24,202 nt of DNA from a virus. This document shows positions 1 to 24,130 of the stretch, piece by piece; within the stretch, counting starts at the first letter, position 1, and every line of letters begins with the position of its first letter. The stretch covers positions 1 through 24,202 of the IMG/VR virus record IMGVR_UViG_3300021137_000098; one strand, 5' to 3'. Position numbers and translations under genes: made by a program. The notes beneath the pieces were generated by a model that saw only the letters and a program-made list of their open reading frames with translations, was not told the origin of the DNA and did no database searches.

Positions 1-1199
1 CTGCCACTTATTAATGCAAGCGGTGCTAATCCTTCGGCTAATATTTTTATGCCTAGTCCTGATTTCTCACCTGCGAAGCCAAGTTCCAATATTGATGCTG
101 CACTTCCGATAGTAAATGCGTTTAAACCTTCTGCCAATCCTTTTAAATTAATACCGCTTATTAATGCAAGCGGTGCTAATCCATCAGCTAACATTTTTAT
201 TCCGTTACCAGATTTCTCACCTGCATAGCCAAGTTCTAATATCGATACTGCACTTCCGATAGTAAACGCTTTTAGACCCTCAGCTAAACCTTTTAGGTTG
301 CTGCCACTTATTAATGCAAGCGGTGCTAATCCTTCGGCTAATATTTTTATGCCTAGTCCTGATTTCTCACCTGCGAAGCCAAGTTCTAATATCGATACTG
401 CACTGCCAATAGTAAATGCCTTTAGGCCTTCGGCCAAACCTTTTAAGTTGCCGCCGCTTATTAAAGCAAGTGGTGCCAGTCCATCTGCTAGAAGCCATAG
501 TCCAAGTCCGGATTTCTCACCTGCGAAGCCAAGTTCTAATATTGATACTGCACTCCCGATACTGAATGCTGCTAGACCAGCTGCTAGACCAGCTAGATTA
601 TTGCCATTTATTTCAGATAATGGTTTTAATCCAGATGCAAGAAGCCACAATCCATTGCCAGATTTCTCACCTGCGAAGCCAAGTTCTAATATTGATACTG
701 CACTTCCGATACTGAATGCAGCTAAGCCAGCTGCTAACCCAGCCAAATTGTCGCCGTTTATTTCTGATAGAGGTTTTAAACCATCTGCTAGAAGCCATAA
801 TCCGAGACCTGACCTCTTACCAGCAAAGCCGAGTTCTAATATTGATACTGCACTTCCGATGCTGAATGCATTTAAACCTTTTGCTAGTCCAGCTAAATTA
901 TTACCAACTATTTCAGCCAGTGGTTTTAGTCCATTTGCTAAAAGTAATAATCCTTCTCCAGCTATCTCACCGGCAATACCAAGTAATCTTATTGACATTG
1001 CACTACCCATACCGAATGCATTTAAACCTTTTGATAATCCAGATAGATTGTCTCCATTTATTTCTGATAGTGGTTTTAATCCCTCGGCTAACATTTTTAT
1101 TCCTGGCGCTGCATCAGCGGCCGCTGCGCCAAATTTCATTAAATCCAATTTACCATTAGCAGTTAGAACACCTAAACCTATTCCTAAATCTATTAATGA
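1..1199 (-). repeat. In-frame 150-bp (50-residue) tandem repeats, at least eight units
   Basis: The period is exactly 150 bases. Unit boundaries read on the minus strand fall near 1199, 1049, 899, 749, 599, 449, 299 and 149, and the array continues past base 1. A typical unit starts NLKGLAEGLKAFTIGSAV, continues SILELGFAGEKSG and ends ILAEGLAPLALISG. The unit at 1199-1050 is diverged and the units nearest the left edge are most alike. Bases 1-86 and 301-386 are identical, pointing to a recent duplication in a 300-base step. Further upstream in the gene (about 1200-2200) looser hydrophobic repeats with spacing near 180 bases share the phrase LLAWGLKSL, suggesting that the 50-residue units grew out of an older repeat. 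Confidence 0.93.
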
Positions 1200-4100
1200 T
1201 GATCCATCTATATCAGCTAACAATGTAAGACCTTCGCCTAGCATCTTTATTCCGGGTGCTGCCATAGATGCTGCGATACCAAATGCTGCTAATCCAAGAG
1301 ATCCTAATAATAGTAATGGTGATGCAATAACGGCTGCTGTTCCTAGTGCTATAAGACCATACGAGATGCCAATCATATCCAATAAACTAACATCCTTAAA
1401 TGCTTTCATACCTTCGGCTAACGACTTAAAGCTATCACCTAATAATCCTATTCCTGGGGCCGCAATTAATGCTGCTAAACCTATTGCTGTTAGACCGACA
1501 GATGCCACTAATAAGAAAGGTGTTGCAAATGCAAGTGAAACACCTAATGCAGCAATACCATATCCGATACCTACTAATCCCAAGAATCCTATAGCTGATA
1601 AATTTGTAATTGCTTCGCTTAATATTTTAAATGCGAAACTAACGCCTAATAATCCGGGCGTAGCTATTAATGCCGCTACACCAATTGCAATTAATCCTGC
1701 CGACCCAATTACCAAGAATGGTGATGCAAATCCAAGAGCGACCCCAAATAACGTTAAGGCGCCTCCTACTGCAAGTAAATCACCCGCACTAACTTCCATT
1801 AATGATTTAAGACCCCATGCTAATAATGCAATAGGTACTGCCGCGATTGCCGCAGCAACACCAAATGCTGCTAGAGGAATGGCAGCTAATAATAATGCAG
1901 GAGAAACAAGTAGTATTGATGCCGCTAAACCTGCAAGTCCTAGAGCAATACCTGCTATTTGCATGCCACTGATATCGCTCAGTCCTTTAAGGCCCCATGC
2001 TAATAAAGCAAGACCGGGTCCTGCTACCATTGATGCTGCACCTAATGCTACCAATCCTACCGACCCGATTAATAAGAATGGAGTAGCAAATGCCAGCCCG
2101 GCACCTAATGCCACTAACCCGGCAGAAATACCTATTATATCTAGTAAACCAATATCTTTTAGAGAATCAAGCCCATCACTGAGCATTGTAAATCCGGACC
2201 CTATGGCTTGTATTGCTCCACCTAATATCCATAATGCTGCACTGAATAATCCAATGCCGGCGGCTGCGAATGCCAATGGAACAAACATTGCATCTAATAC
2301 AGGTGCAACTATTGCTAATATTACAGTTAATCCTAGAAGTGCTACACCGGCTTTTGCTAAAGATTCCCATTCTATAGTATTAAACTCGACTAGTGCCTTA
2401 CTAAGAATCCATAATGATGCAGCAATCCCTGCCATTGCTAGTACACCTTTCAATACTTGAGTAGAACCAAATGCTTTTATTCCGTTTGCTATACCTTTTA
2501 ATATATCAGTAACGGCTTTGCCGGCGCCTTTCGCTAAGTCTGCAATACCTTTGCCTAATGTGGATAATGCACTACTTGCTCCACCACCTGCGGCTTCAGC
2601 TGCACCACCTGCGGCGCCTTTCGCTGGGCCACCCACAACTCGAGCAGCAAGGTTTTTAAATCCATTTTTTAAACCACTTAAACCACCTAGTAATCCTTTA
2701 AAGACTGGTAATAATGCCGCACCAATAATGCCTACACCGATCCAAGCTGTTAAATCAAAGCTATCAGCAAGTCCGAAAGCACTTAATACTCCACCTATCT
2801 TTTCACCTAACCAATCTAATCCGTTTATAACCCACTCAATTGGTTTAATCAATAGGGTTAATGCGCCGGTTAATATATTCATCATTGTAGCAGTAGGGCC
2901 AAATGCTCTTTGTAGCAACGATATGAATTTTTCCCATGCATTTGTAAGACCTTTACTTGCAGCATTGCTCGCTTGTAGTCGCTTAATCTCTTCTTCTTTA
3001 AGAGGTTTAATAGCGTTGGCTTGTTTTTCTAATCCTACAATGAAATCTAATGCTGCACCTGCCTCAGCAACACCTGCCTGCTTTAGTAATGCTAATCGTT
3101 GCTTCTGCTGTGCAAATTCACCTTTGTGTGCTTCAACGTATGCTTTTAATTTCTGCGCTTGTTCTTCTGCTGGCATACCTTCGAGTGTTTTAGTGAAGGC
3201 TGTAAATTGTTGAGCAAAACCACCCATACCTACTTTCTGAAGATTCATAAATGTATCATTTAGTTGTTTAATAGGACTAGACATTAAGTTTAATATCTGT
3301 TGAGCGATGTTTTGATTCTTGAATGATCCTAAAAAGGTAGTCATTCCTTCTGCTGCTTGTGTGCCGACCTGCCCAGCATATATATTTGCTTCTGTCATTT
3401 CAGCAAGTGCTGTTGTCTGCTTTATGATTGTTTCGCGTGACTGGCCTGTTGCCATCGATAATCTAAATACATTCTTACCAAATTTCTGTAGACCATCATT
3501 TGTTTCTTCGGCTGTCTTATGGCTGACATCTGAAGTCTGTTGTTGTATGCTTAGATACTGTCCTAATAATTCTGCACTTTCTTTAGCAGAGAATCCAAAT
3601 TGTGTTAAATTAGAACTTGCCATACCTACAGTTTTAGCAAATCTTCCAACACCAAAGGAATTTACCGCATTAGAATATGTTGTCATTGCGGCAGCAAGTT
3701 CTGTAAACCTAACACCAGTTTCTGCTGTAAGTTGACGCAATGATTGAAAACCATCTTTGGTTGCGCCCATACCACTTATAACATTTACACCAGCAGCAGT
3801 TAACTCATCAAATGTCTTCTTATTTTCAACAAATGTATCACCGATAAGCTTTGCGGCGCCAGCAAGACTAAGATCGAAAGAGATTCTTTTACCAAATACT
3901 TCTGCATTTTCTAATCGACGTTTCTTTTCTTTCTTATCTTCAAGCTCTTTCTCTTTATTACGCTTCTTTTCCTTGACATTCTCATCTTTTAAGTCTTTGG
4001 CCCAGTCTTCAAACGCATCCTTAACATCATTAACTTCTTTTGGAGTTAAACCAGAGCCTCCGGCAGCGGCAGTTTTAATGAGTTGAGCAAGAGCCTGTTT

Positions 4101-4238
4101 CTGTACAGATAAGCTTTGAGCAAGTATTCCTTTAACTGTTACCGCGGTATTTTCCGTTGCCCACGGCGGTAAACTCTCAATTTCTTCAGTGAGCGCACCT
4201 TTTGCGATGCCAGTTATAAAGACAGAATTATCAGCCAT
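1..4238 (-). CDS. Tape-measure-like tail protein, C-terminus cut off by the window edge
   Basis: The frame is open from an ATG at 4238 to the left edge, at least 1,412 codons; I read most of it without meeting a stop. The N-terminus (MADNSVFITG) is followed by a Lys/Glu-rich charged coiled-coil-like stretch at about residues 80-112, then a long Gln/Ala/Thr-rich helical region. Small-residue-rich Gly/Ala segments follow at about residues 530-580, then very hydrophobic Ala/Leu/Gly/Ile segments from about residue 600. From about residue 1013 the protein consists of 50-residue tandem repeats. Great length, low complexity, hydrophobic central segments and a gene for a tail-assembly-type protein next door fit a tape measure protein, which sets tail length and passes through the tube during DNA ejection. 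This is inferred from architecture, not from a conserved motif. The Shine-Dalgarno is weak (AAAGAAAC). A late promoter lies upstream at 4290-4297. It is much longer than T4 gp29 (about 590 residues). Confidence 0.75.
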   Translation of the reverse strand, partial: MADNSVFITGIAKGALTEEIESLPPWATENTAVTVKGILAQSLSVQKQALAQLIKTAAAGGSGLTPKEVNDVKDAFEDWAKDLKDENVKEKKRNKEKELEDKKEKKRRLENAEVFGKRISFDLSLAGAAKLIGDTFVENKKTFDELTAAGVNVISGMGATKDGFQSLRQLTAETGVRFTELAAAMTTYSNAVNSFGVGRFAKTVGMASSNLTQFGFSAKESAELLGQYLSIQQQTSDVSHKTAEETNDGLQKFGKNVFRLSMATGQSRETIIKQTTALAEMTEANIYAGQVGTQAAEGMTTFLGSFKNQNIAQQILNLMSSPIKQLNDTFMNLQKVGMGGFAQQFTAFTKTLEGMPAEEQAQKLKAYVEAHKGEFAQQKQRLALLKQAGVAEAGAALDFIVGLEKQANAIKPLKEEEIKRLQASNAASKGLTNAWEKFISLLQRAFGPTATMMNILTGALTLLIKPIEWVINGLDWLGEKIGGVLSAFGLADSFDLTAWIGVGIIGAALLPVFKGLLGGLSGLKNGFKNLAARVVGGPAKGAAGGAAEAAGGGASSALSTLGKGIADLAKGAGKAVTDILKGIANGIKAFGSTQVLKGVLAMAGIAASLWILSKALVEFNTIEWESLAKAGVALLGLTVILAIVAPVLDAMFVPLAFAAAGIGLFSAALWILGGAIQAIGSGFTMLSDGLDSLKDIGLLDIIGISAGLVALGAGLAFATPFLLIGSVGLVALGAASMVAGPGLALLAWGLKGLSDISGMQIAGIALGLAGLAASILLVSPALLLAAIPLAAFGVAAAIAAVPIALLAWGLKSLMEVSAGDLLAVGGALTLFGVALGFASPFLVIGSAGLIAIGVAALIATPGLLGVSFAFKILSEAITNLSAIGFLGLVGIGYGIAALGVSLAFATPFLLVASVGLTAIGLAALIAAPGIGLLGDSFKSLAEGMKAFKDVSLLDMIGISYGLIALGTAAVIASPLLLLGSLGLAAFGIAASMAAPGIKMLGEGLTLLADIDGSSLIDLGIGLGVLTANGKLDLMKFGAAAADAAPGIKMLAEGLKPLSEINGDNLSGLSKGLNAFGMGSAMSIRLLGIAGEIAGEGLLLLANGLKPLAEIVGNNLAGLAKGLNAFSIGSAVSILELGFAGKRSGLGLWLLADGLKPLSEINGDNLAGLAAGLAAFSIGSAVSILELGFAGEKSGNGLWLLASGLKPLSEINGNNLAGLAAGLAAFSIGSAVSILELGFAGEKSGLGLWLLADGLAPLALISGGNLKGLAEGLKAFTIGSAVSILELGFAGEKSGLGIKILAEGLAPLALISGSNLKGLAEGLKAFTIGSAVSILELGYAGEKSGNGIKMLADGLAPLALISGINLKGLAEGLNAFTIGSAASILELGFAGEKSGLGIKILAEGLAPLALISG

Positions 4239-4318: not shown

Positions 4319-5164
4319 ATGAAACAAGAAATTCGCCAAAACCCGCTGAAGGGGTACTTCAGACAATTTAAGTTATTTCTAAAACTACCTAGCGGAACAT
4401 CATATTATGCGCCTGGTGCTATAACTTTTTCAGATAATGGAGAAGTAGGAATTATGCCCATGACTGGCAAAGATGAACTTATCTTAAAGAATCCAGATGC
4501 TCTATTAAACGGTGAAGCATTGCTAGAAGTTATTAGAAGCTGCACGCCGGCGGTAAGTGATCCGCGGATATTACTAACAAATGATATCGATGCGATTATC
4601 ACAGCTATTAGATTTGCTACATATAATGATGCACTTGAGACAGAATTAACCTGCCCTGAATGTAGTCATAAGAATCTATATCCACTAGACTTGCAATATT
4701 CTATAGATAATATGTCTTTCTTAGATACAGAGTATGTTGTTAATATGGATAATGGATTAAGTATATTTGTTAAACCTTATGGTTTTCCAGAATTACTCAA
4801 AGGCCTACATGCCCAGTTTGAACAAAGCAAACTAACACGCGCTATCGAAAGTGAGAATATCACAGAAGATGCTAGACTAAAACTTTTTGCTACAGCATTT
4901 AAAGAACTATCTGTTATTACATACGAACTAATGGTTAATTCTGTATTAAAAGTTGTTGATGAAAGTAAGAAAATTAATGTGTCAGATAAGAATGATATTA
5001 AAGAATTCTTACAAAACATTGATAAGAAGAGTAGCGACAAGATTAGTGATTTAATTAAAGAAATAAATCAGATTGGTATTAAAAGAACATTTACTCCTCA
5101 TTGTGAAAAATGTAATCACGAATGGGAAAGCGAGATTGATTTTAATCCAGTAAATTTTTCATAA
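4319..5164 (+). CDS. gp26-like baseplate/tail-assembly protein with two CxxC pairs
   Basis: This 281-residue protein opens MKQEIRQNPLKGYFRQF and contains LPSGTSYY, a common opening in the T4 gp26-type (T4_baseplate family) proteins. Two CxxC pairs, CPEC near residues 111-114 and CEKC near residues 262-265, could bind one zinc ion by bringing the central and terminal parts together. The Shine-Dalgarno AGAGGAAA precedes the ATG and a late promoter lies at 4262-4269. In T4, gp26 is a baseplate hub assembly component and gene 51 follows gene 26. Here a short ORF follows in the -1 frame without a start codon. The last codons contain an A-AAT-TTT slippery sequence one codon before the TAA stop, so this protein is probably made both alone and as a longer fusion. 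That arrangement next to a tape measure gene is the hallmark of tail assembly chaperones (lambda gpG/gpGT). Family assignment is from memory of the sequence pattern. Confidence 0.7.
   Translation: MKQEIRQNPLKGYFRQFKLFLKLPSGTSYYAPGAITFSDNGEVGIMPMTGKDELILKNPDALLNGEALLEVIRSCTPAVSDPRILLTNDIDAIITAIRFATYNDALETELTCPECSHKNLYPLDLQYSIDNMSFLDTEYVVNMDNGLSIFVKPYGFPELLKGLHAQFEQSKLTRAIESENITEDARLKLFATAFKELSVITYELMVNSVLKVVDESKKINVSDKNDIKEFLQNIDKKSSDKISDLIKEINQIGIKRTFTPHCEKCNHEWESEIDFNPVNFS
5152..5158 (+). promoter_or_regulatory. Candidate -1 ribosomal frameshift heptamer A-AAT-TTT
   Basis: In the frame of the gp26-like gene the end reads GTA AAT TTT TCA TAA, so the heptamer AAATTTT matches the X-XXY-YYZ rule with X=A and Y=Z=T. 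Slipping back one base re-pairs TTT perfectly and AAT on AAA in two of three positions. The -1 frame is then open from 5158 to a TAA at 5389-5391 (77 codons). A short stem AGGTC (5164-5168) / GACCT (5200-5204) begins 5 bases after the heptamer, though its loop is long. Confidence 0.65.
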
Positions 5165-5391
5165 GGTCCTTAATTTTTCTACCTGCTGAACAATTAGGTG
5201 ACCTAATTCAATCATATGCTAAAGAATCATTATTACTAAGAGAACAAATAGCTGATATATGCTACTTTATGAAGGGCGGGATTGAATGGAATTCAGCATG
5301 GGGTATGAGCTTTCAAGATAGGGAGATTACAATTAAAGTTCTCAATAAGAGATTGAAAGAGCAGAACCCCGGTGGTAAGGAATATATGTAA
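5158..5391 (+). CDS. Start-less small ORF, probably the frameshift extension of the gp26-like protein
   Basis: The frame is open for 77 codons after the slippery site and gives FIRSLIFLPAEQLG, then a helical, conserved-looking stretch with ICYFMKGGIEW, GMSFQDREI and NKRLKEQNPGGKEYM before TAA. Upstream in this frame there is a stop at 5143-5145, and no ATG, GTG or TTG occurs until an ATG at 5269, deep inside the domain; only ATA, ATT or similar poor codons could start it. The pattern of a short helical protein with a Trp and a DRE-type motif recalls small tail-assembly partners (lambda gpT-like, and the ORF following gene 26 in T4-like phages). The fused product would be about 357 residues. 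Alternative: initiation at ATT 5173, which has AGG a few bases upstream. Confidence 0.65.
   Translation, partial: FIRSLIFLPAEQLGDLIQSYAKESLLLREQIADICYFMKGGIEWNSAWGMSFQDREITIKVLNKRLKEQNPGGKEYM
5192..5208. repeat. Perfect 8-bp inverted repeat with one central base
   Basis: AATTAGGT-G-ACCTAATT lies within the frameshifted small ORF, 33 bases after the slippery heptamer. As RNA it can form a 7-bp stem with a TGA triloop. It may be chance in coding sequence or a stimulator or modulator of frameshifting. Confidence 0.5.
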
Positions 5392-5400
5392 GGAAAATAT

Positions 5401-5982
5401 ATGCAAAAAAAGACAGACACGCTAGAACTTGATATCCCGGTAGATGATATCGAGTGTTGGGAGCGTTATCCTAAACATCGATGGGTATACGACCTATCAC
5501 GATTACTTGATGCTCAAAACATCAAGTGGAGTCCTTACGAGACAGACACTTTGCAAGATAAAGAAGTGAATATGTATTTTAATTCAAATAGAAATATTAT
5601 ATATGAAACTTCACATATCTATATTAATAAACCAGAAGGTGATCATATACTTACGGAAGTATATATCACCAAGGGTGAGATTAAGTTAACAAGACATATA
5701 GATAAGAGAACTCGTGTAGAAATTCAAGAGTTCATGGGAAATATCGAATTACGTGTCAATGCATTTGTATCTATGCATTTTCAGAAATTCACAGGAGTCA
5801 TTACAGCAGAATCTATTGGCAACGATATTATGTCAATACGCCTACGTCCATATTCAGAACTTAGTATTAATGTCAGTCCTGATATTATTAAGCTCACAAA
5901 GCGCATATATAAGAAAACTGATATAACCTTAAGTGGTCTTACAGACCAAGTCATTCGCGAAACGAATACGTTATCTATTTAG
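5401..5982 (+). CDS. Unrecognised phage protein, 193 residues
   Basis: The ATG is preceded by AAGGA at good spacing and lies 9 bases after the stop of the frameshifted ORF, so the gene is in the same late operon. The N-terminal quarter is aromatic-rich (ECWERYPKHRWVYDLSRLL). The middle alternates hydrophobic and polar residues in a beta-rich pattern (NIIYETSHIYI, ILTEVYITKGEIKL). The C-terminus is Thr/Ile-rich. There is no signal peptide or membrane segment. I do not recognise a family. Its position between tail-assembly genes and its late promoter suggest a virion or assembly role. It ends in TAG, overlapping the stop of the convergent gene by 4 bases. Confidence 0.7.
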   Translation: MQKKTDTLELDIPVDDIECWERYPKHRWVYDLSRLLDAQNIKWSPYETDTLQDKEVNMYFNSNRNIIYETSHIYINKPEGDHILTEVYITKGEIKLTRHIDKRTRVEIQEFMGNIELRVNAFVSMHFQKFTGVITAESIGNDIMSIRLRPYSELSINVSPDIIKLTKRIYKKTDITLSGLTDQVIRETNTLSI

Positions 5983-6942: not shown

Positions 6943-7515
6943 CTAAAAACTTCGTGCTGGGCTAGTAACAAATGCACGCATTTCTTTCACTCTGCGTAAC
7001 CAGCCATCTAAGAATTTCTGTTGAGTAGGATCCTCAGCAACAATTTCGTTATAATATTTTACACGCTGATCGCAGACTGAGTTACATATTTCAGTAGCAT
7101 CTTGATCAGCTAGGCTAGCAAGTGTTATGGGGCCGATTGCACCATCATCTTCTACTTCTATAGCACGTTGAATAAATTTAGAAGCTGTACCAGGCCCGTG
7201 TTGTATTGCACCATCAAATTGTAATATCGCAAGGCGGCCATCCATCTTATCACATTTAGCGTTTAACCAATAATGACTAAAATAAACTGCCTTGGCTGTA
7301 CTCCAATCCATATGTGTAATATCTAGATCGGGATTAGCATTTTTAGCAATTCCGTACTTTGTTTCTCCACCATGATCATGGGGGTCGTTTGTATATCCGC
7401 AGGCCCGAGCATTAGTACCATCTTCTGCACCCGGTGTATCGAGATTCCAGAAGCTACCGACTTCGTATAACATTGCGTGATTTATAGCCTTTTCAAATGC
7501 TTGTGTATATTCCAT
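6943..7515 (-). CDS. GH108-type endolysin (muramidase) with C-terminal peptidoglycan-binding domain
   Basis: This 190-residue protein is predicted to cut the glycan strands of peptidoglycan for host lysis. The N-terminal half carries the GH108 signature: YEVG with the probable catalytic Glu18, and GYTNDPHDHGGETKYGI, which matches the family's usual GYxNDPxDPGGETxxGI. The C-terminal half (about 100-190, QHGPGTASKFIQRA, DGAIGPITLASL) fits the peptidoglycan-binding type 3 domain found with GH108. Between Glu18 and GYTND there are about 20 extra residues rich in Gly/Asp/Ala, where the family usually has only a few. There is no signal peptide, so a holin elsewhere would be needed. Strong Shine-Dalgarno AAGGAG. 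It is the last gene of the minus-strand glycosyltransferase-methyltransferase operon, 9 bases after its neighbour. Confidence 0.85.
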   Translation of the reverse strand: MEYTQAFEKAINHAMLYEVGSFWNLDTPGAEDGTNARACGYTNDPHDHGGETKYGIAKNANPDLDITHMDWSTAKAVYFSHYWLNAKCDKMDGRLAILQFDGAIQHGPGTASKFIQRAIEVEDDGAIGPITLASLADQDATEICNSVCDQRVKYYNEIVAEDPTQQKFLDGWLRRVKEMRAFVTSPARSF

Positions 7516-12887: not shown

Positions 12888-13227
12888 TTTCTTTTATAAA
12901 TTTGTCAAGATCTTCCTGCGTTATTCCACTATCTAATGATGCCTTAATAGCTTGCTGCTCATCAAACTCTGCCATGGCATCTTCGATAGCTTTTTCATCT
13001 GGCGTTAAAGCATTATATTCTGCTTTTTTGATTCGAGTATATTCTTCTCTATATTCTTCTAATGTCCACCCGATTGATTCAAAGAATTCTTTAACTTCTT
13101 GACTATTTTCTACATCTGGACAATCACTTATATTGAAACCAGTGCGTTCGCACCATTTTCTTATACGCCCATCAATATTATTCAATTCAACTTTTCTTAA
13201 TTTATTAAACGTCTCATCTTCTGTCAT
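12862..13227 (-). CDS. Unrecognised acidic protein downstream of gp46, 121 residues
   Basis: Begins MTEDETFNKLRKVELNNID; the composition is strongly acidic and helical (Glu/Asp-rich) throughout, with ITQEDLDKFIKENGPL near the end. The ATG overlaps the gp46 stop codon (TAATG), so it is coupled to gp46 expression. Coupling and charge would be compatible with an accessory or inhibitory partner of the recombination nuclease or another DNA-mimic-like role, but nothing in the sequence proves this. Confidence 0.7.
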   Translation of the reverse strand: MTEDETFNKLRKVELNNIDGRIRKWCERTGFNISDCPDVENSQEVKEFFESIGWTLEEYREEYTRIKKAEYNALTPDEKAIEDAMAEFDEQQAIKASLDSGITQEDLDKFIKENGPLTGIR

Positions 13228-15008
13228 TATATATCTCCCATATTATCATTTGATTCTATTGTTGTGAAACCACCGTCCTTAATTACCTTTAGAACATTCG
13301 AAACACGACCAACTAACTCATCTCTATGTGAAATTAAGTAAATATTCCTATTATTTTCTCTACACATCTTTTTCAATATAGCAACAGATGCTTCGACACC
13401 ACTTGAATCTAGCCCTTGATCGATGAGCTCGTCCACAAATAGTATATTAATCTTATTATTCATATTCTCAAATACGTCTCTAAAACTCCAACTTAGAGAT
13501 AATATTAATCGTGTGCGCTCGCCACGAGAAAGGTTATCAAAGTCAAATTCCTTACCATACATAGAAATCTCTACCTCTAGATCGGATTTGAATTTTACTA
13601 AGTGTGGCAAACCTATGTCTGTTAAATAATGCGCTAAACGATGATTTAAGAATGCTAAATTTTGATCAATAATCTTCTTACGAATAAATGAGTCTTTGTT
13701 TGTTAATAGCTTTAATAGAAAATCTTGATGATCTCGTAAATTGACAAGATTATTCAATACCGTAAAATCAATTGCTTGTAATCCGTCCCGTTTTAGAACT
13801 ACGATCTGATCTACATATGGATTAATTGTATCTAAATCCGATGCTAAACTATTACCTAAGGTATCTAGTGTTGTCTTATGATTCCATGCTTCATCAATTG
13901 TATCGTAGAAGGGCTCGGGCAACTTAGGGATCATAGATGCAACTGTTGTTGCAAGTGTTTTTACTTCGTCCCGTTTTACTGCTTTTTCGGCTAATCTTGT
14001 CTTGGCGTCGCTATGTTGGGCTACATATTCGCTATGCACCGCAGCATGTGTATCTTTGTCCATTTCCTGGCTACATGTAGGGCAGATCTTCTCGACAGAA
14101 CTTGCTAAAACTTTATCTAAACGAACAATCGTCCTAGATGAATCAGTAACATCCTTTTCGAGCCCGCTTAATTCTTTAGCAAGAGATCTATACTCAGCAG
14201 TTAAATCTTCAACTTCTTTCTTAGACTTGTGTAAAGCAATTTCATCATCGATATTAACATTAAGTAGTTCTAAGATAGATGCTTGAAGTTTATCTATCCT
14301 TAGCGACTTCGCGCTATCCCACGCCTTGGACTTTGCCTCAAGCCCTGTAATATTCTGTTCAATCCTTTTATTAGCCTCCGTTGCCGCCGTAATTCTAAAT
14401 TCCTCTTCTTTGATTTCATCTTTTGTTATCCTTGCTTCTTCTTTAAGCTTGTCTGCTTTTTCAGAGAGTTTGGTAATGCCTAAGAGCTGCTCAATTATAA
14501 TTCTTTGATCATTTGTTTTTAACGCAAGGAAAGGTTCTACGTATGTGTTAAGGGCTACCAAGTGACTAAAAAGGTCATGCGAAATGCCAAGTATTAATTC
14601 TATTTCTTTTTGTGTATTAGAATTTTCACCTTGTGCCTCATCTGTCTTTTCACCATCATCTTGTTCTGTGCCATCTTTAATAAACTTAAATATATTAGGC
14701 TTTCTACCACGTATAATTTTATATTTTTGCCCATGCACTTCAAAATCGACTGTAACAACCATATTCTTTTGGTTTGTGGCATTAATTAGATTATCTTTTC
14801 TGATCTTTGTTAATGCCGCACCAAACAATCCATAAGATAATGCATTTACAATTGCCGATTTACCAACTCCGTTACGATTATCGTTGCCGCCTAGATCTAA
14901 ATTTTCACCCAGAACCAAAACTAAATCAGTGCCGTGAAAATTAATACTCTGAACAACATTACCGATACTTAAGAAATTCTTAATTGTTATTGAATTGATT
15001 ACTATCAT
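13227..15008 (-). CDS. 46: gp46-like recombination nuclease ATPase subunit (Rad50/SbcC family)
   Basis: 593 residues, close to T4 gp46 (560). Motifs in order: Walker A with NGVGKSA near residue 50; long coiled coil arms; a zinc-hook CPTC near residues 307-310; the ABC signature LSRGERTRL near 490; Walker B ILFVDELID near 520; and SHRDE near 560, the switch histidine. Together with gp47 it forms the Mre11-Rad50-like complex that resects DNA ends. In T4 this drives recombination-dependent replication and host DNA degradation. The ATG overlaps the gp47 stop (ATGA) with no clear Shine-Dalgarno, giving coupled and balanced synthesis of the two subunits. Confidence 0.95.
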   Translation of the reverse strand: MIVINSITIKNFLSIGNVVQSINFHGTDLVLVLGENLDLGGNDNRNGVGKSAIVNALSYGLFGAALTKIRKDNLINATNQKNMVVTVDFEVHGQKYKIIRGRKPNIFKFIKDGTEQDDGEKTDEAQGENSNTQKEIELILGISHDLFSHLVALNTYVEPFLALKTNDQRIIIEQLLGITKLSEKADKLKEEARITKDEIKEEEFRITAATEANKRIEQNITGLEAKSKAWDSAKSLRIDKLQASILELLNVNIDDEIALHKSKKEVEDLTAEYRSLAKELSGLEKDVTDSSRTIVRLDKVLASSVEKICPTCSQEMDKDTHAAVHSEYVAQHSDAKTRLAEKAVKRDEVKTLATTVASMIPKLPEPFYDTIDEAWNHKTTLDTLGNSLASDLDTINPYVDQIVVLKRDGLQAIDFTVLNNLVNLRDHQDFLLKLLTNKDSFIRKKIIDQNLAFLNHRLAHYLTDIGLPHLVKFKSDLEVEISMYGKEFDFDNLSRGERTRLILSLSWSFRDVFENMNNKINILFVDELIDQGLDSSGVEASVAILKKMCRENNRNIYLISHRDELVGRVSNVLKVIKDGGFTTIESNDNMGDI

Positions 15009-16024
15009 AGATTATTATATATTTCGATGAATTTATTAATTTCAAACTTTGAATCATTATCTAACGTGTTTAGACATTCGATAACAATTTGATCCACTGT
15101 TTTTAGTGTAATATCACCCGTAAATTCCTTAGTTAAATCATCATTGGGGTTTCGAATAAGCTTAAACTCTCTTACGCTATACTGAGACATAAATGTTTCA
15201 CGTAAAAAAGCTGCTTCTTCGTACGTTATGTCGATGTCTAAAGTAACTTGAAGATATGTTTTAGGTTTAAGATAGATATCTGGATTAGCTAGTAATGCCG
15301 CTAAGTTGATACTTATAAAGCGCGGTCCACCTGTATAATCTAAGAACTCTGGTTCCTTATCCCATTCTAAATACATGGCACCACGTTCAAAGTCCCAAAC
15401 GTCGCTGTAATTATGTCCGAAAGGATTACCAATATAAGTAACCTTGCCTTTTGTTTGTCGTAGGTGAAAGTGTCCAGAGAACACGTAATCCTGATGTTTG
15501 AAATGTTCTGCATTGATGCCACCGTGATCGGGCATCTCGACTTGAGCATTCATTTTAAATCCCGGAAGTTCTAAATGGCCGAAAAGATATTTTGATTTGA
15601 TGTTAACAATATCTTCCCACTCATCATTAACTAACCAAGGCACAAAAGCAACATCATCGACAACAAGAGGTTCATCTACGAGCACAATATTAGGATATAG
15701 TGCAGCAAACTTCATTGATGTTACAGAACGGTTATCACGAAAGTATAAATCGTGATTTCCGACCATAAAATATGTCTTCTTAAACGAACTATTCAACATA
15801 CCTAGCAATTTAATGCTATATTCGAGTGTCTGAGCATTGATTGTATTCCTATGGTGCATAAAGTCGCCCATAAAAATACAGGTATCGACATCTCGACTTT
15901 TCGCTTCAGCTATCAACCAATGGGTATAGTCTATGCAATCGTCGAGATGTGTTACTGAATTATGCTTTAGACCGAGATGGATGTCACTGAAAACTATCGC
16001 TCTTTTAAAAAGTTGATTTGTCAT
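15005..16024 (-). CDS. 47: gp47-like recombination nuclease subunit (Mre11/SbcD family)
   Basis: I start it at the ATG at 16024 (339 residues, the same length as T4 gp47 as I remember it) because GGGAG lies just upstream; a GTG three codons earlier is possible but lacks a better site. Metallophosphoesterase motifs are complete: FSDIHLG (Asp14, His16), MGDFMHHR (Asp54), GNHD (Asn90, His91), a FGHLE near 150 and SGHFHLR further on. It is the Mn-dependent nuclease partner of gp46. The stop of the GIY-YIG gene overlaps its start as ATGA, so the homing endonuclease sits between gp55 and gp47 without separating gp47 from its ribosome-binding site. Confidence 0.95.
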   Translation of the reverse strand: MTNQLFKRAIVFSDIHLGLKHNSVTHLDDCIDYTHWLIAEAKSRDVDTCIFMGDFMHHRNTINAQTLEYSIKLLGMLNSSFKKTYFMVGNHDLYFRDNRSVTSMKFAALYPNIVLVDEPLVVDDVAFVPWLVNDEWEDIVNIKSKYLFGHLELPGFKMNAQVEMPDHGGINAEHFKHQDYVFSGHFHLRQTKGKVTYIGNPFGHNYSDVWDFERGAMYLEWDKEPEFLDYTGGPRFISINLAALLANPDIYLKPKTYLQVTLDIDITYEEAAFLRETFMSQYSVREFKLIRNPNDDLTKEFTGDITLKTVDQIVIECLNTLDNDSKFEINKFIEIYNNL

Positions 16025-16773
16025 ATCTCCCACCCCCTAAATCCGCGATGAGTTTTATTTTCTTTTGTTTTTAATAATATACGATCTATTATGCACCCAT
16101 ATTCTCTACTGAATGCTGATTTACTATCGTATATTTTAATTGTCCCATCGACAAATTCTATCTTTACTTTTTTAGATACTTTTGCTGCACCTAATAATCC
16201 GCCTAGTTTTGCCTGTTCATCTCGAATTTCTTTATTTTTATTTCGTGATATAATCATTTGTTCTCTTTTCTTTTCCACTAACTCGGGATGAGATTTATAA
16301 AATTCGATAAGTGTCTCTGATCTTTTTTTATATACTTCTTCAGTATGTAAATGCTTCGTTAATTCGCGTCGTTCGTCATTAGTTTTATTCTTCCATTTTA
16401 TATTATAATTATAGTCGGTCATTGTAAAACTATATAATTGCTTTAACTGGTTAATCTCATCTTCTGTAAATTGCGATAAATCTTGTCCTATACCGTCACC
16501 GCCACGGGTAGAATTATAGCCCTTCTTGTATGAATTATACTCATCTATCCAGTAAATCTCTTTAAATGCTAAATCGATAATTCTGTCAGAATGATCAATG
16601 ATCTCGTATCGGAATTTATCTGGACCTTTTCTTAGAGCCATATAGAATTTTGTATCTTTAGTGAGACAATCCCGTTTATGTGTTTTCCATCTATGTTCGA
16701 GATGTTCGAGATGTGTATCGAATCCGATATAGCAGAGATTATTTTCGACATTTGTTATTTTATAGATAAACAT
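16021..16773 (-). CDS. Free-standing GIY-YIG homing endonuclease
   Basis: 250 residues from the ATG at 16773 (a TTG at 16785 is in frame, but the ATG has GGA at proper spacing). The N-terminal GIY-YIG domain reads FIYKITN...CYIG, with Tyr4, Tyr15, Arg28, Glu72 and Asn87 (GYNSTRGGDG) in the order and spacing of I-TevI's Tyr6, Tyr17, Arg27, Glu75 and Asn90. A basic helical middle follows, then a C-terminal DGTIKIYDSKSAFSREYG motif resembling the NUMOD/IENR1 DNA-binding modules of homing endonucleases. There is no intron around it: gp55 and gp47 are both intact, so it is an intergenic, Seg-type selfish gene. A late promoter and a hairpin stand directly before it. Confidence 0.88.
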   Translation of the reverse strand: MFIYKITNVENNLCYIGFDTHLEHLEHRWKTHKRDCLTKDTKFYMALRKGPDKFRYEIIDHSDRIIDLAFKEIYWIDEYNSYKKGYNSTRGGDGIGQDLSQFTEDEINQLKQLYSFTMTDYNYNIKWKNKTNDERRELTKHLHTEEVYKKRSETLIEFYKSHPELVEKKREQMIISRNKNKEIRDEQAKLGGLLGAAKVSKKVKIEFVDGTIKIYDSKSAFSREYGCIIDRILLKTKENKTHRGFRGWEI

Positions 16774-16778
16774 ATTAC

Positions 16779-16815
16779 GATCCAAAGTGTATAATGTTAT
16801 TTATCACTTTGGATC
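16779..16815 (-). promoter_or_regulatory. Late promoter inside an RBS-hiding hairpin before the homing endonuclease
   Basis: GATCCAAAGTG and CACTTTGGATC are perfect 11-bp complements (16805-16815 and 16779-16789) separated by 15 bases. On the minus strand the late promoter GATAAATA (16805-16798) starts at the end of the first arm and fills the loop; the second arm contains GGA, the ribosome-binding site for the ATG at 16773. A read-through transcript from gp55 would fold and hide the site. A late transcript starting in the loop (about 16792) lacks the first arm and leaves it free. Confidence 0.7.
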
Positions 16816-21565: not shown

Positions 21566-24130
21566 ATGTCGTATACAGATACACTAACCAGAACAACAAA
21601 AACAACGAAATCTGATGCCGGCGAGGCAATGGGTCGGTCATCGCCGCTGACTGGGTTGTTTATAGGATTTATAAAAGAAGCGACAGACGTCCAAAGAAAC
21701 GGTAGATTACGTGTGTGGATTCCAGAATTTGGCTCTGCACCAGATAACCCCGATGGATGGACGATTTGCAGCTATTGTTCACCGTTTGCTGGTGCGACAA
21801 ACGTCGATACTATAAGCAAGACAGACACTCATTCATTTGATCAGACGCAGACATCATACGGTATGTGGATGGTGCCGCCTGACATTAATAATGAAGTATT
21901 GGTAATGTTTATTAATGGTGATGCATCTAGAGGGATATGGATTGGATGCCTGTATAATCAGTTTATGAATAATATGATTCCCGGTATGGCTGCAGATGCT
22001 AAGAACTGGGAATATCCGGGCAAGGTTATACCTGTTGCCGAATATAATAAATGGGATAACATTGATACTCCTGATCGAGCAATTAAACCGTATCAGAAGA
22101 CGAAATTTAAAGGTGTCGGTAATCAGGGACTTATTAACGATAAAGGTCGCGGCACAACAACATCCGGCGCAAGACGCGAAGCGCCAAGTACTGTATTCGG
22201 TATTATTACTCCGGGACCATTAATTGATAGCAATGTGACCTCTGATAAGTTTAGAAGAAAAGGTGGCTCATCCTTTATTATGGATGACGGCGATGGTACA
22301 GAGTATGTTCAGCTTGTTACAAAGACAGGTGCCCAGATTAGACTAGATGAAACCAATGGTTTTGTTTACATGATTAATCGAGATGGTACAGCATGGGTTC
22401 AGATGGATCAAACTGGAAACATAGATATCTTTAGTGCTGCTACTATCTCCTTACGCGGCCAGAAAGATATCAATATTCGTGCAGACAGAAATGTAAATAT
22501 TGAGGCGGGACAAAACGTCTTTATAAAGGCAGCGAAAGATACAATACAAGAAACTACTGTATTCACATATGATGTAAATAATGTACCGAAAACAAAGACT
22601 ATCCCTGTCTGGAACTATAAAGGCGAGGGACTCGGTGACGGTGGCAATATTGTTATGCAGGCTCTTAATAACTGGCACAGCACTACACAAAATAATGCAT
22701 TCTTAACTGTTGTTAATAATGATATGGACATTGATATCGGTAATGCATTTAGTCTTACAACAATTGCAGCAGGTCAAGATTATAATGCTAAATTAGGTAT
22801 TAAGATGTCTACTCAAGCTTCTATAGATTTAGTGGCAACAAGTAATATCAGAGTAGGAGCAAATGGTAGCGTATCTGTTGTAGGTATGGGCGATGTCGTA
22901 TTATGTACTAGTGCTAATATGAGTCTTAATGCATCAGGTAATATTATAGAAACTGCTGCAGGATCATTCTCGTTAGATGCATCATTTGTGGGAATTGGCA
23001 CTAGCGTTGGTATTAATGGAAACTTAGATGTCACTGGCAATATAACAGGCGGCACCATAGTAGGAAATTTCCCGGGACTTCGCGGCGGCGATGGCGCCAC
23101 AACTGGCGGCCCTGGTGCAGCACCATCACTAAGTTCACCTATTGCTGCACAACCTGCAATGACATCAGGTGTTGCTAAACAAGCCGAAATAAAACCACTT
23201 GTTGAGAAAATTAATATTCTTGCAACCTGGATTCCTACTGTAACATACCCTAAGTGGAAAAAAGATACGGCATACAATTCTGGCGATCTTATTACCAATA
23301 ATGATATTATATACATATGCAATGCAGGTGGCCAACCACCATCGGCAACATTTCCTGCACAACAATGGACAATACTTATTCCAGAAGATAAGTTTAAGAG
23401 AAAGGCCGAGTCTTTAGAAACAACACTTTCTAGACTTCCTACATATGAACCGTGCCCAGAACATGAAAACTTTGGTTTTGGATCTATTAGCGGTTATACA
23501 CCAAAACAGACAGAAGCATCTAAGACATATGAAGGTTCGGGTGGTGCAGGTGGCGGAGCAACATCGTCGCCGGCGACTAACACAACACCGGGTGCAAATA
23601 ATAAAGATATTGCACCTGTACCAGCCGAAGATAGTGCAATATCCAAAGACTTTAACATGGCCGCTTATCAATGCGAACTAAAGATAAACGAAGGTGTAAA
23701 ATACGTCTCTTATAAGGATACAAAGGGTTTGCCAACAGGCGGCATTGGTCACTTATTGCGTCAAAATGAAATATCACAATATCCTGTACCGACTACTATT
23801 TCCGAAGCACAAGTCAACACTTGGTTCCAGTCTGATGCGCCAAGTTCAATAGGTGGCGCACAACGATTATTAGGTATGGATTGTTGGAGTGGTTTATCTG
23901 ATATTAGAAAACGTGCATGTGCAGACTTATGTTACAATATGGGTGAAGGTGAATTATCCAAATTCAAGAGCTTCTTAGCAGCAATGAAGGCAGGTAATTT
24001 CAATGAAGCTGGAGCACAATTAAAGAGTTCTGCTTGGTTTAACCAGGTAGGACAACGTGGTCCACGAATTATAACAATGATTGTACAAAACGTCGACAGC
24101 AACGGTTGCGATAAAAAGTGGCCGACATGA
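21566..24130 (+). CDS. 5: gp5-like central spike with C-terminal T4-type lysozyme
   Basis: 854 residues. Domains in order: OB fold at about 25-130 (GLFIGFIKEATDVQRNGRLRVWIPEFG, then NNEVLVMFINGDASRGIWIGCLY) as in gp5/VgrG; a beta-helix at about 230-520 (SSFIMDDGDGTEY, NGFVYMINRDGTAWVQMD, then repeated NI-x-I-x-A-type strands); a carbohydrate-binding-like module at about 562-608 (KWKKDTAYNSGDLITNNDIIY, ending QQWTIL); a Gly/Ala/Thr linker; and a T4-lysozyme domain at about 695-852 (INEG...YKDTKGLPTGGIGH). Catalytic Glu709, Asp718 and Thr724 have the same spacing as T4 lysozyme Glu11, Asp20 and Thr26. In T4 gp5 the lysozyme lies between the OB fold and the beta-helix; here it is at the end. It pierces the envelope and opens the cell wall during injection. 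Confidence 0.9.
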   Translation: MSYTDTLTRTTKTTKSDAGEAMGRSSPLTGLFIGFIKEATDVQRNGRLRVWIPEFGSAPDNPDGWTICSYCSPFAGATNVDTISKTDTHSFDQTQTSYGMWMVPPDINNEVLVMFINGDASRGIWIGCLYNQFMNNMIPGMAADAKNWEYPGKVIPVAEYNKWDNIDTPDRAIKPYQKTKFKGVGNQGLINDKGRGTTTSGARREAPSTVFGIITPGPLIDSNVTSDKFRRKGGSSFIMDDGDGTEYVQLVTKTGAQIRLDETNGFVYMINRDGTAWVQMDQTGNIDIFSAATISLRGQKDINIRADRNVNIEAGQNVFIKAAKDTIQETTVFTYDVNNVPKTKTIPVWNYKGEGLGDGGNIVMQALNNWHSTTQNNAFLTVVNNDMDIDIGNAFSLTTIAAGQDYNAKLGIKMSTQASIDLVATSNIRVGANGSVSVVGMGDVVLCTSANMSLNASGNIIETAAGSFSLDASFVGIGTSVGINGNLDVTGNITGGTIVGNFPGLRGGDGATTGGPGAAPSLSSPIAAQPAMTSGVAKQAEIKPLVEKINILATWIPTVTYPKWKKDTAYNSGDLITNNDIIYICNAGGQPPSATFPAQQWTILIPEDKFKRKAESLETTLSRLPTYEPCPEHENFGFGSISGYTPKQTEASKTYEGSGGAGGGATSSPATNTTPGANNKDIAPVPAEDSAISKDFNMAAYQCELKINEGVKYVSYKDTKGLPTGGIGHLLRQNEISQYPVPTTISEAQVNTWFQSDAPSSIGGAQRLLGMDCWSGLSDIRKRACADLCYNMGEGELSKFKSFLAAMKAGNFNEAGAQLKSSAWFNQVGQRGPRIITMIVQNVDSNGCDKKWPT

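Follow-up and report, generated by a model that had tools for sequence, protein, structure and literature searches.

The 3′ end of this virus gene raises the question of whether a gp26-like protein simply ends at its stop codon or is also continued, through a programmed −1 frameshift, into an overlapping open frame that lacks a start codon. The window, by which we mean the whole stretch of DNA analysed, is the 24,202-base virus record IMGVR_UViG_3300021137_000098 (positions 1 to 24,202), and the gp26-like ORF, which we read as the short tail assembly chaperone (TAC-N), lies on its plus strand at 4319..5164 and encodes 281 aa. The ORF ends GTA AAT TTT TCA TAA, which places the slippery heptamer A_AAT_TTT (5152..5158, plus strand) in the X-XXY-YYZ phase one codon before the frame-0 stop TAA (5162-5164, plus strand). 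The −1 frame has a stop at 5143-5145, is open from 5146 and closes with a TAA at 5389-5391; the extension read in it (TAC-C; 5158..5391, plus strand), which was aligned across 75 sequences, comprises 77 codons and this TAA. The first ATG, GTG or TTG that it offers in the window is an ATG at 5269, midway through the conserved domain, and no normal start for an independent gene is found before it. Joined at residue 280, TAC-N and the extension would form a fusion of 357 residues (TAC-NC; 280 + 77). The heptamer, the 77-codon frame without a start before its conserved part and the size and junction of the fusion had all been described in the original prediction, and the sequence agrees with it on each. 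Comparison with relatives leads us to read the locus as a gp26-family tail assembly chaperone gene whose two products, TAC-N and TAC-NC, are predicted to be made by −1 frameshifting at A_AAT_TTT, a reading to which we assign a probability of about 0.88 on the evidence of sequence.

The gp26-like ORF matches the Pfam family PF12322 (T4_baseplate) with an E of 5e-21 and 75.8 bits against a curated cut-off of 24.5, and all 77 of the 77 aligned members match the same family (E ≤ 0.001). Matches to the protein were found in 62 named phage records, among which PA5oct-like Pseudomonas phages rank first (∼43% identity), followed by Phosso, SCTP-2, Atu_ph07, CBB, RaK2, 121Q and others; closer kin are present in IMG/VR, where 20 of the 22 loci of one search share 65–100% identity with the window. 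For the comparison of junctions 123 inputs (the window, 21 of 22 IMG/VR loci, 4 of 5 more, the best 80 of 581 relatives and 17 named phages) were collapsed by junction-region identity into 103 distinct loci, a set that leans towards the window's kin because only the best 80 of 581 relatives entered it, and that keeps near-copies, with kinship handled only through comparison within the same genes. Two loci were left out, one being a partial match (L027) and the other a match close to a contig end (L046). Within the IMG/VR relative searches, again including the best 80 of 581, we define a window clade of 32 distinct alleles.

Loss of the heptamer in close relatives, which the original prediction had named as evidence against a frameshift, is not seen, as AAATTTT is kept in 32 of the 32 clade alleles. 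Of the 103 distinct loci in the wider set (including the best 80 of 581 relatives), 102 have an in-phase heptamer no more than 45 nt from the frame-0 stop, a frequency that is not due to chance because random 45-nt windows from the same genes contain one in only 6.0 of 103 on average (maximum 13, 200 draws). The phase is equally telling: in the terminal 45 nt heptamer matches occupy 4, 21 and 147 of 1442 positions in the three phases, the 147 being in the frameshift phase. AAATTTT followed by TTTTTTC is the commonest arrangement (42 loci), TTTTTTC alone occurs in 29, AAATTTT alone in 26 and other heptamers in 5 of this same set of 103 with its best 80 of 581. In a sample of 19 diverse loci, 18 carry an in-phase T_TTT_TTC or T_TTT_TTT at a distance of 10 to 40 nt upstream of the frame-0 stop, and in 18 of the 19 the −1 frame runs from the heptamer into a similar extension, the nineteenth being the partial match L027. 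The sole locus of the 103 without any XXXYYYZ heptamer near its frame-0 stop (L092) may shift frame at a different slippery site; its −1 frame is nonetheless open and similar to that of its relatives. Codon usage in the window clade (31 full gp26 genes and 31 full extensions) points the same way, as alleles that share a residue also share its codon at GTA, AAA, TTT and AGG around the heptamer and, within the hairpin described below, at GAC of the 3′ arm, with TTC (0.94) and ATA (0.93) nearly frozen. Behind GTA the highest fourfold column reaches 0.68, and behind AGG the highest sixfold column reaches 0.71, whereas AAA, TTT and GAC are singly less telling because some twofold columns elsewhere reach 0.97–0.99.

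Downstream of the heptamer lies a putative stimulator hairpin (5164..5204, plus strand), which the original prediction did not mention. The 60 nt that follow the heptamer fold with −14.9 kcal/mol (z −4.5), and the stem starts at 5164 after a 5 nt spacer (5159..5163, plus strand) that runs two bases into the frame-0 stop; AGGTC at 5164-5168 pairs with GACCT at 5200-5204, and further inward the arms can pair in two alternative registers. An initial reading of the hairpin as a 5-bp stem with a long loop was superseded, upon refolding, by this longer two-register form. In the window clade 30 of 32 alleles have z < −2 (mean −3.4, 60 shuffles each), the exceptions being one allele with z −1.9 (L023) and one without the hairpin (L078), and in a scan of this clade every 30 nt across gp26 and the extension (30 offsets) the mean is −14.3 kcal/mol at the hairpin, whereas the means of the remaining 29 offsets range from −4.4 to −10.0. 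The outer five pairs are nearly invariant in the clade. The next pair (columns 18 and 48) is seen as A-U, U-A and C-G and is unpaired in 15 of 31 distinct rows, 14 of which pair in the register with one bulged base. The unbulged register pairs 91.5% of cells and its covariation score is higher than in 500 of 500 shuffles, and the bulged register alone covaries weakly, its score being reached by 38 of 500 shuffles. When the better of the two registers is taken for each row, pairing is 0.948 against a mean of 0.885 and exceeds 5000 of 5000 arm swaps, a result that is not a strict probability because the alleles are related.

Outside the clade the downstream fold lies below the mean of its own gene in 66 of 76 distinct loci and at or below the gene minimum in 43 (including the best 80 of 581 relatives). 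The hairpin is therefore conserved in most groups and not universal, since in 10 of the 76 the fold is no better than the background of its own gene, and 8 of these 10 are named phages (Hallingskeid, CBB, GAP32, XbC2, RaK2, Munch, Kaldavass and BF). Downstream stimulatory structures are common, and not obligatory, for frameshifting tail assembly chaperones. A group of Erwinia, Pectobacterium, Cronobacter, Xanthomonas, Klebsiella, Salmonella and Serratia jumbo phages (L028, L029, L031–L035 and L040) keeps T_TTT_TTC but has no clear hairpin just downstream.

If the extension is instead a separate gene, ribosomes that end gp26 would have to re-initiate at the ATT at 5173 (ATN in relatives) by way of the SD-like AAGG (5163..5166, plus strand), which lies 6 nt upstream of that codon (5173-5175). 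In favour of this reading, extension codon 8, the ATT of the window, is an ATN codon in all 32 clade alleles and ATG in 7 of them; however, the A and T of ATN pair with other bases in one hairpin register, which can therefore explain their fixation, and the AAGG is itself mostly paired, with three of its four bases within the 5′ arm of the hairpin. What speaks most strongly against initiation at ATT 5173 is the sequence between the gp26 stop and the ATT, which already looks coding in the −1 frame. At extension codons 6 and 7 all 32 of the 32 clade alleles specify S-L, with 3 and 5 different codons in use, respectively, and the same bases give several different peptides in the other frames. In the wider set (including the best 80 of 581 relatives) 22 of 102 loci do have an early start codon accompanied by an SD-like 4-mer, the start being ATG or GTG in 16, yet 50 of 102 are without ATG, GTG or TTG up to extension codon 20. 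A separate second CDS, often late-starting, is given in 14 of 16 annotated named records (a seventeenth record carries no annotation). Re-initiation would nevertheless leave the heptamer without a role, despite its retention in nearly every locus compared, and we consider it very unlikely. A normal start codon in homologues, which the original prediction had named as refuting evidence, is thus not a conserved trait, although the 7 alleles with ATG at the ATT position speak against the prediction. These alleles and the 22 early starts mean that additional independent initiation is possible in some phages, so that frameshifting would supply TAC-NC and phages with ATG at this position would also make free TAC-C. 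Where such alleles keep the AAGG it is 6 nt upstream of the ATG, but it remains inside the conserved hairpin, and the codon is ATT, ATA or ATC in 25 of the 32 alleles, among them that of the window; a combination of both routes seems improbable to us, if less so than re-initiation by itself. On these sequence comparisons the extension is best taken as translated by continuation and not from a start of its own.

The same two frames could in principle be joined at the level of the transcript, by RNA polymerase rather than the ribosome slipping on the T run. The site is T-rich and in distant relatives the run reaches six or seven T, but the run in the window is only five T long, the codon phase is conserved and the hairpin sits at the spacing usual for ribosomal frameshifting, all of which make transcriptional slippage a highly improbable account. 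That the frame change lies inside a metagenomic contig might also suggest a sequencing error or a decayed gene; five other IMG/VR contigs, however, have the identical junction, and the same arrangement recurs in 102 of the 103 distinct loci, isolated phages among them, of the set that includes the best 80 of 581 relatives, so that this possibility is close to negligible. Programmed −1 frameshifting from the gp26-like ORF into the start-less ORF, as originally predicted, is thus the reading supported by the conserved heptamer, the −1 coding of codons 6 and 7 and the hairpin.

In the frameshifting model most ribosomes would stop at the TAA at 5162 and release the 281-residue TAC-N, and a minority would slip back one base at A_AAT_TTT and read 77 further codons to produce the 357-residue TAC-NC, probably helped by the hairpin 5 nt downstream of the heptamer. 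By analogy with lambda gpG/gpGT, TAC-N and TAC-NC would both cover the tape measure protein while the tail is being assembled, and TAC-NC would bring in the tail tube protein.

The probable tape measure gene is the large divergent ORF on the minus strand at 3..4238, an open frame of 1412 residues that runs off the window and is incomplete at its edge. The assignment is based on its length, its position and the many hydrophobic repeats seen by eye, and on RaK2, where the annotation of the gene in the equivalent place notes similarity to a tape measure protein. Attempts to place it by family or sequence match failed, as PHROGs and tblastn against phage records gave no match and Pfam none above the cut-offs. 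The tape measure gene that the original prediction placed beside the pair is thus a probable one, a large, repetitive and divergent neighbour. The divergence itself had been called unusual, which is not borne out: 15 of the 16 annotated named records show the gene and the one upstream of it in divergent orientation (the exception being Vibrio phage 2.275.O), and in T4 the same holds for gene 26 and 51-27-28-29. In Atu_ph07 and XacN1 the upstream neighbour is a small gene. The plus-strand ORF at 298-2460 is an antisense shadow of the 3-4238 frame. Directly after the extension follows a plus-strand ORF of 193 aa (5401-5982), whose start is also present in the contigs of several relatives and which has no match in PHROG, Pfam or phage tblastn. 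Elsewhere in the window are a baseplate hub and tail lysozyme-like protein (21566-24130, plus strand; phrog_13211), an endolysin-like ORF (6943-7515, minus strand; phrog_315), an ORF that by eye we take to be GIY-YIG-like, of the homing endonuclease type (16021-16785, minus strand), and, adjoining the latter, what are presumably gp46/gp47-like recombination genes (13227-16033).

T4 gp26 and T4 gp51 both belong to PF12322 and are therefore paralogues, and their membership of one Pfam family suggests that T4 probably makes the short and long forms from two separate genes. T4 gp51 is longer than gp26 by a C-terminal part, and the profile of the extension aligns with the end of this part (hhalign P 7.9e-5, probability 61%). 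A single T4 sequence gave no significant match to the extension profile, and there was weak or no support when single-sequence T4 gp51 and gp26 were compared with the profiles or when the TAC-N profile was compared with the gp51 alignment; PHROG 634 is matched by 1 of 75 extension members. Structure models were made of TAC-N and TAC-C as separately folded halves. The TAC-N model (pLDDT 91) has Foldseek matches in BFVD to T4-like baseplate hub or gp26-type proteins and none in the PDB at E ≤ 0.001, and the TAC-C model is all helical (pLDDT 87) with no match at E ≤ 0.001 among the viral models of BFVD. Fold comparison with lambda-type chaperones consequently led nowhere. In an unrooted tree of 24 proteins one branch splits the Straboviridae gp26 and gp51 from the jumbo phage proteins (100/100), the gp51 rows form one group and the gp26 rows are long-branched and do not. 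A split of the gene in the T4 line fits this tree but is not proven by it, because the tree is unrooted and the gp26 branches are long.

Frameshifting in several T4-like groups has reportedly been described by Vladimirov and colleagues in 2022. The PRFect paper, citing Vladimirov, Gautam and Davidson 2022, states in a passage on these genes that some T4-like phages have a short and a long TAC gene instead of frameshifting (PMC10274946), and a passage of a further paper, citing Vladimirov et al. 2022, describes polyT slippery sites in the TAC-N genes of T4-like phages (PMC12846349). That T4 makes its two forms from separate genes is therefore, going by these citing papers, an idea already published. 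In Table 2 of a T4 review gp26 and gp51 appear under hub assembly chaperones, and in its account of the hub the same review says that genetic studies favour gp26 as a part of the hub, that gp51 is of unknown function and that conclusions on the place of both proteins in the hub are contradictory (PMC3004832). The chaperone role which the original prediction proposed for the pair gains support from passages of PMC10274946 and PMC3004832 and is thus not a new inference; the kind of system is already known because these passages, with that of PMC12846349, describe it. Genetic placement of gp26 in the hub and the lack of a function for gp51 in that review, together with annotation of the CBB gp26 homologue as a structural protein, do not fit a purely chaperone role. 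Our search of the open-access literature found no paper on frameshifting tail chaperones in jumbo phages.

A frameshifting tail chaperone is thus known in kind, and very probably one is also shared by a large group of giant phages, the relatives of PA5oct, RaK2 and Atu_ph07, which gain a testable chaperone pair. Annotations will need correction, as none of the 16 named records has a joined CDS and the second CDS is absent from those of PA5oct and RaK2. More speculatively, and at odds that we put well below even, a single frameshifting gp26-type gene may be the ancestral chaperone system of the whole T4-related supergroup, kept in jumbo phages (PA5oct, RaK2, Atu_ph07 and the window clade) and replaced in T4 by duplication into gp26 and gp51, with the hairpin of the window clade serving both to stimulate slippage and to hide the AAGG, blocking a start of the extension's own.

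Among known systems lambda gpG/gpGT, as reportedly described by Xu and co-workers in 2004, gives rise to a short and a long product through −1 slippage on an XXXYYYZ heptamer close to where the first frame ends. The window resembles it in the kind of shift, in the site late in the first frame and in adjoining a tape measure gene, here a probable one; it differs in that its gene is divergent from the large neighbour and in the heptamer. No sequence relation was seen. The TAC of the Pakpunavirus Adele is similar in its alignment-inferred −1 frameshift, its T-rich motif and an extension usually annotated as a separate hypothetical gene, and differs in belonging to another phage family, in its motif GTTTTT and in having the extension upstream of the tape measure gene (PMC12846349). 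Set beside the T4 pair, the window gene shares a core of the same family, PF12322, and a −1 product whose end aligns with the C-terminal part of gp51, whereas T4 has gp26 and gp51 as two separate genes and the window has one gene with a predicted frameshift.
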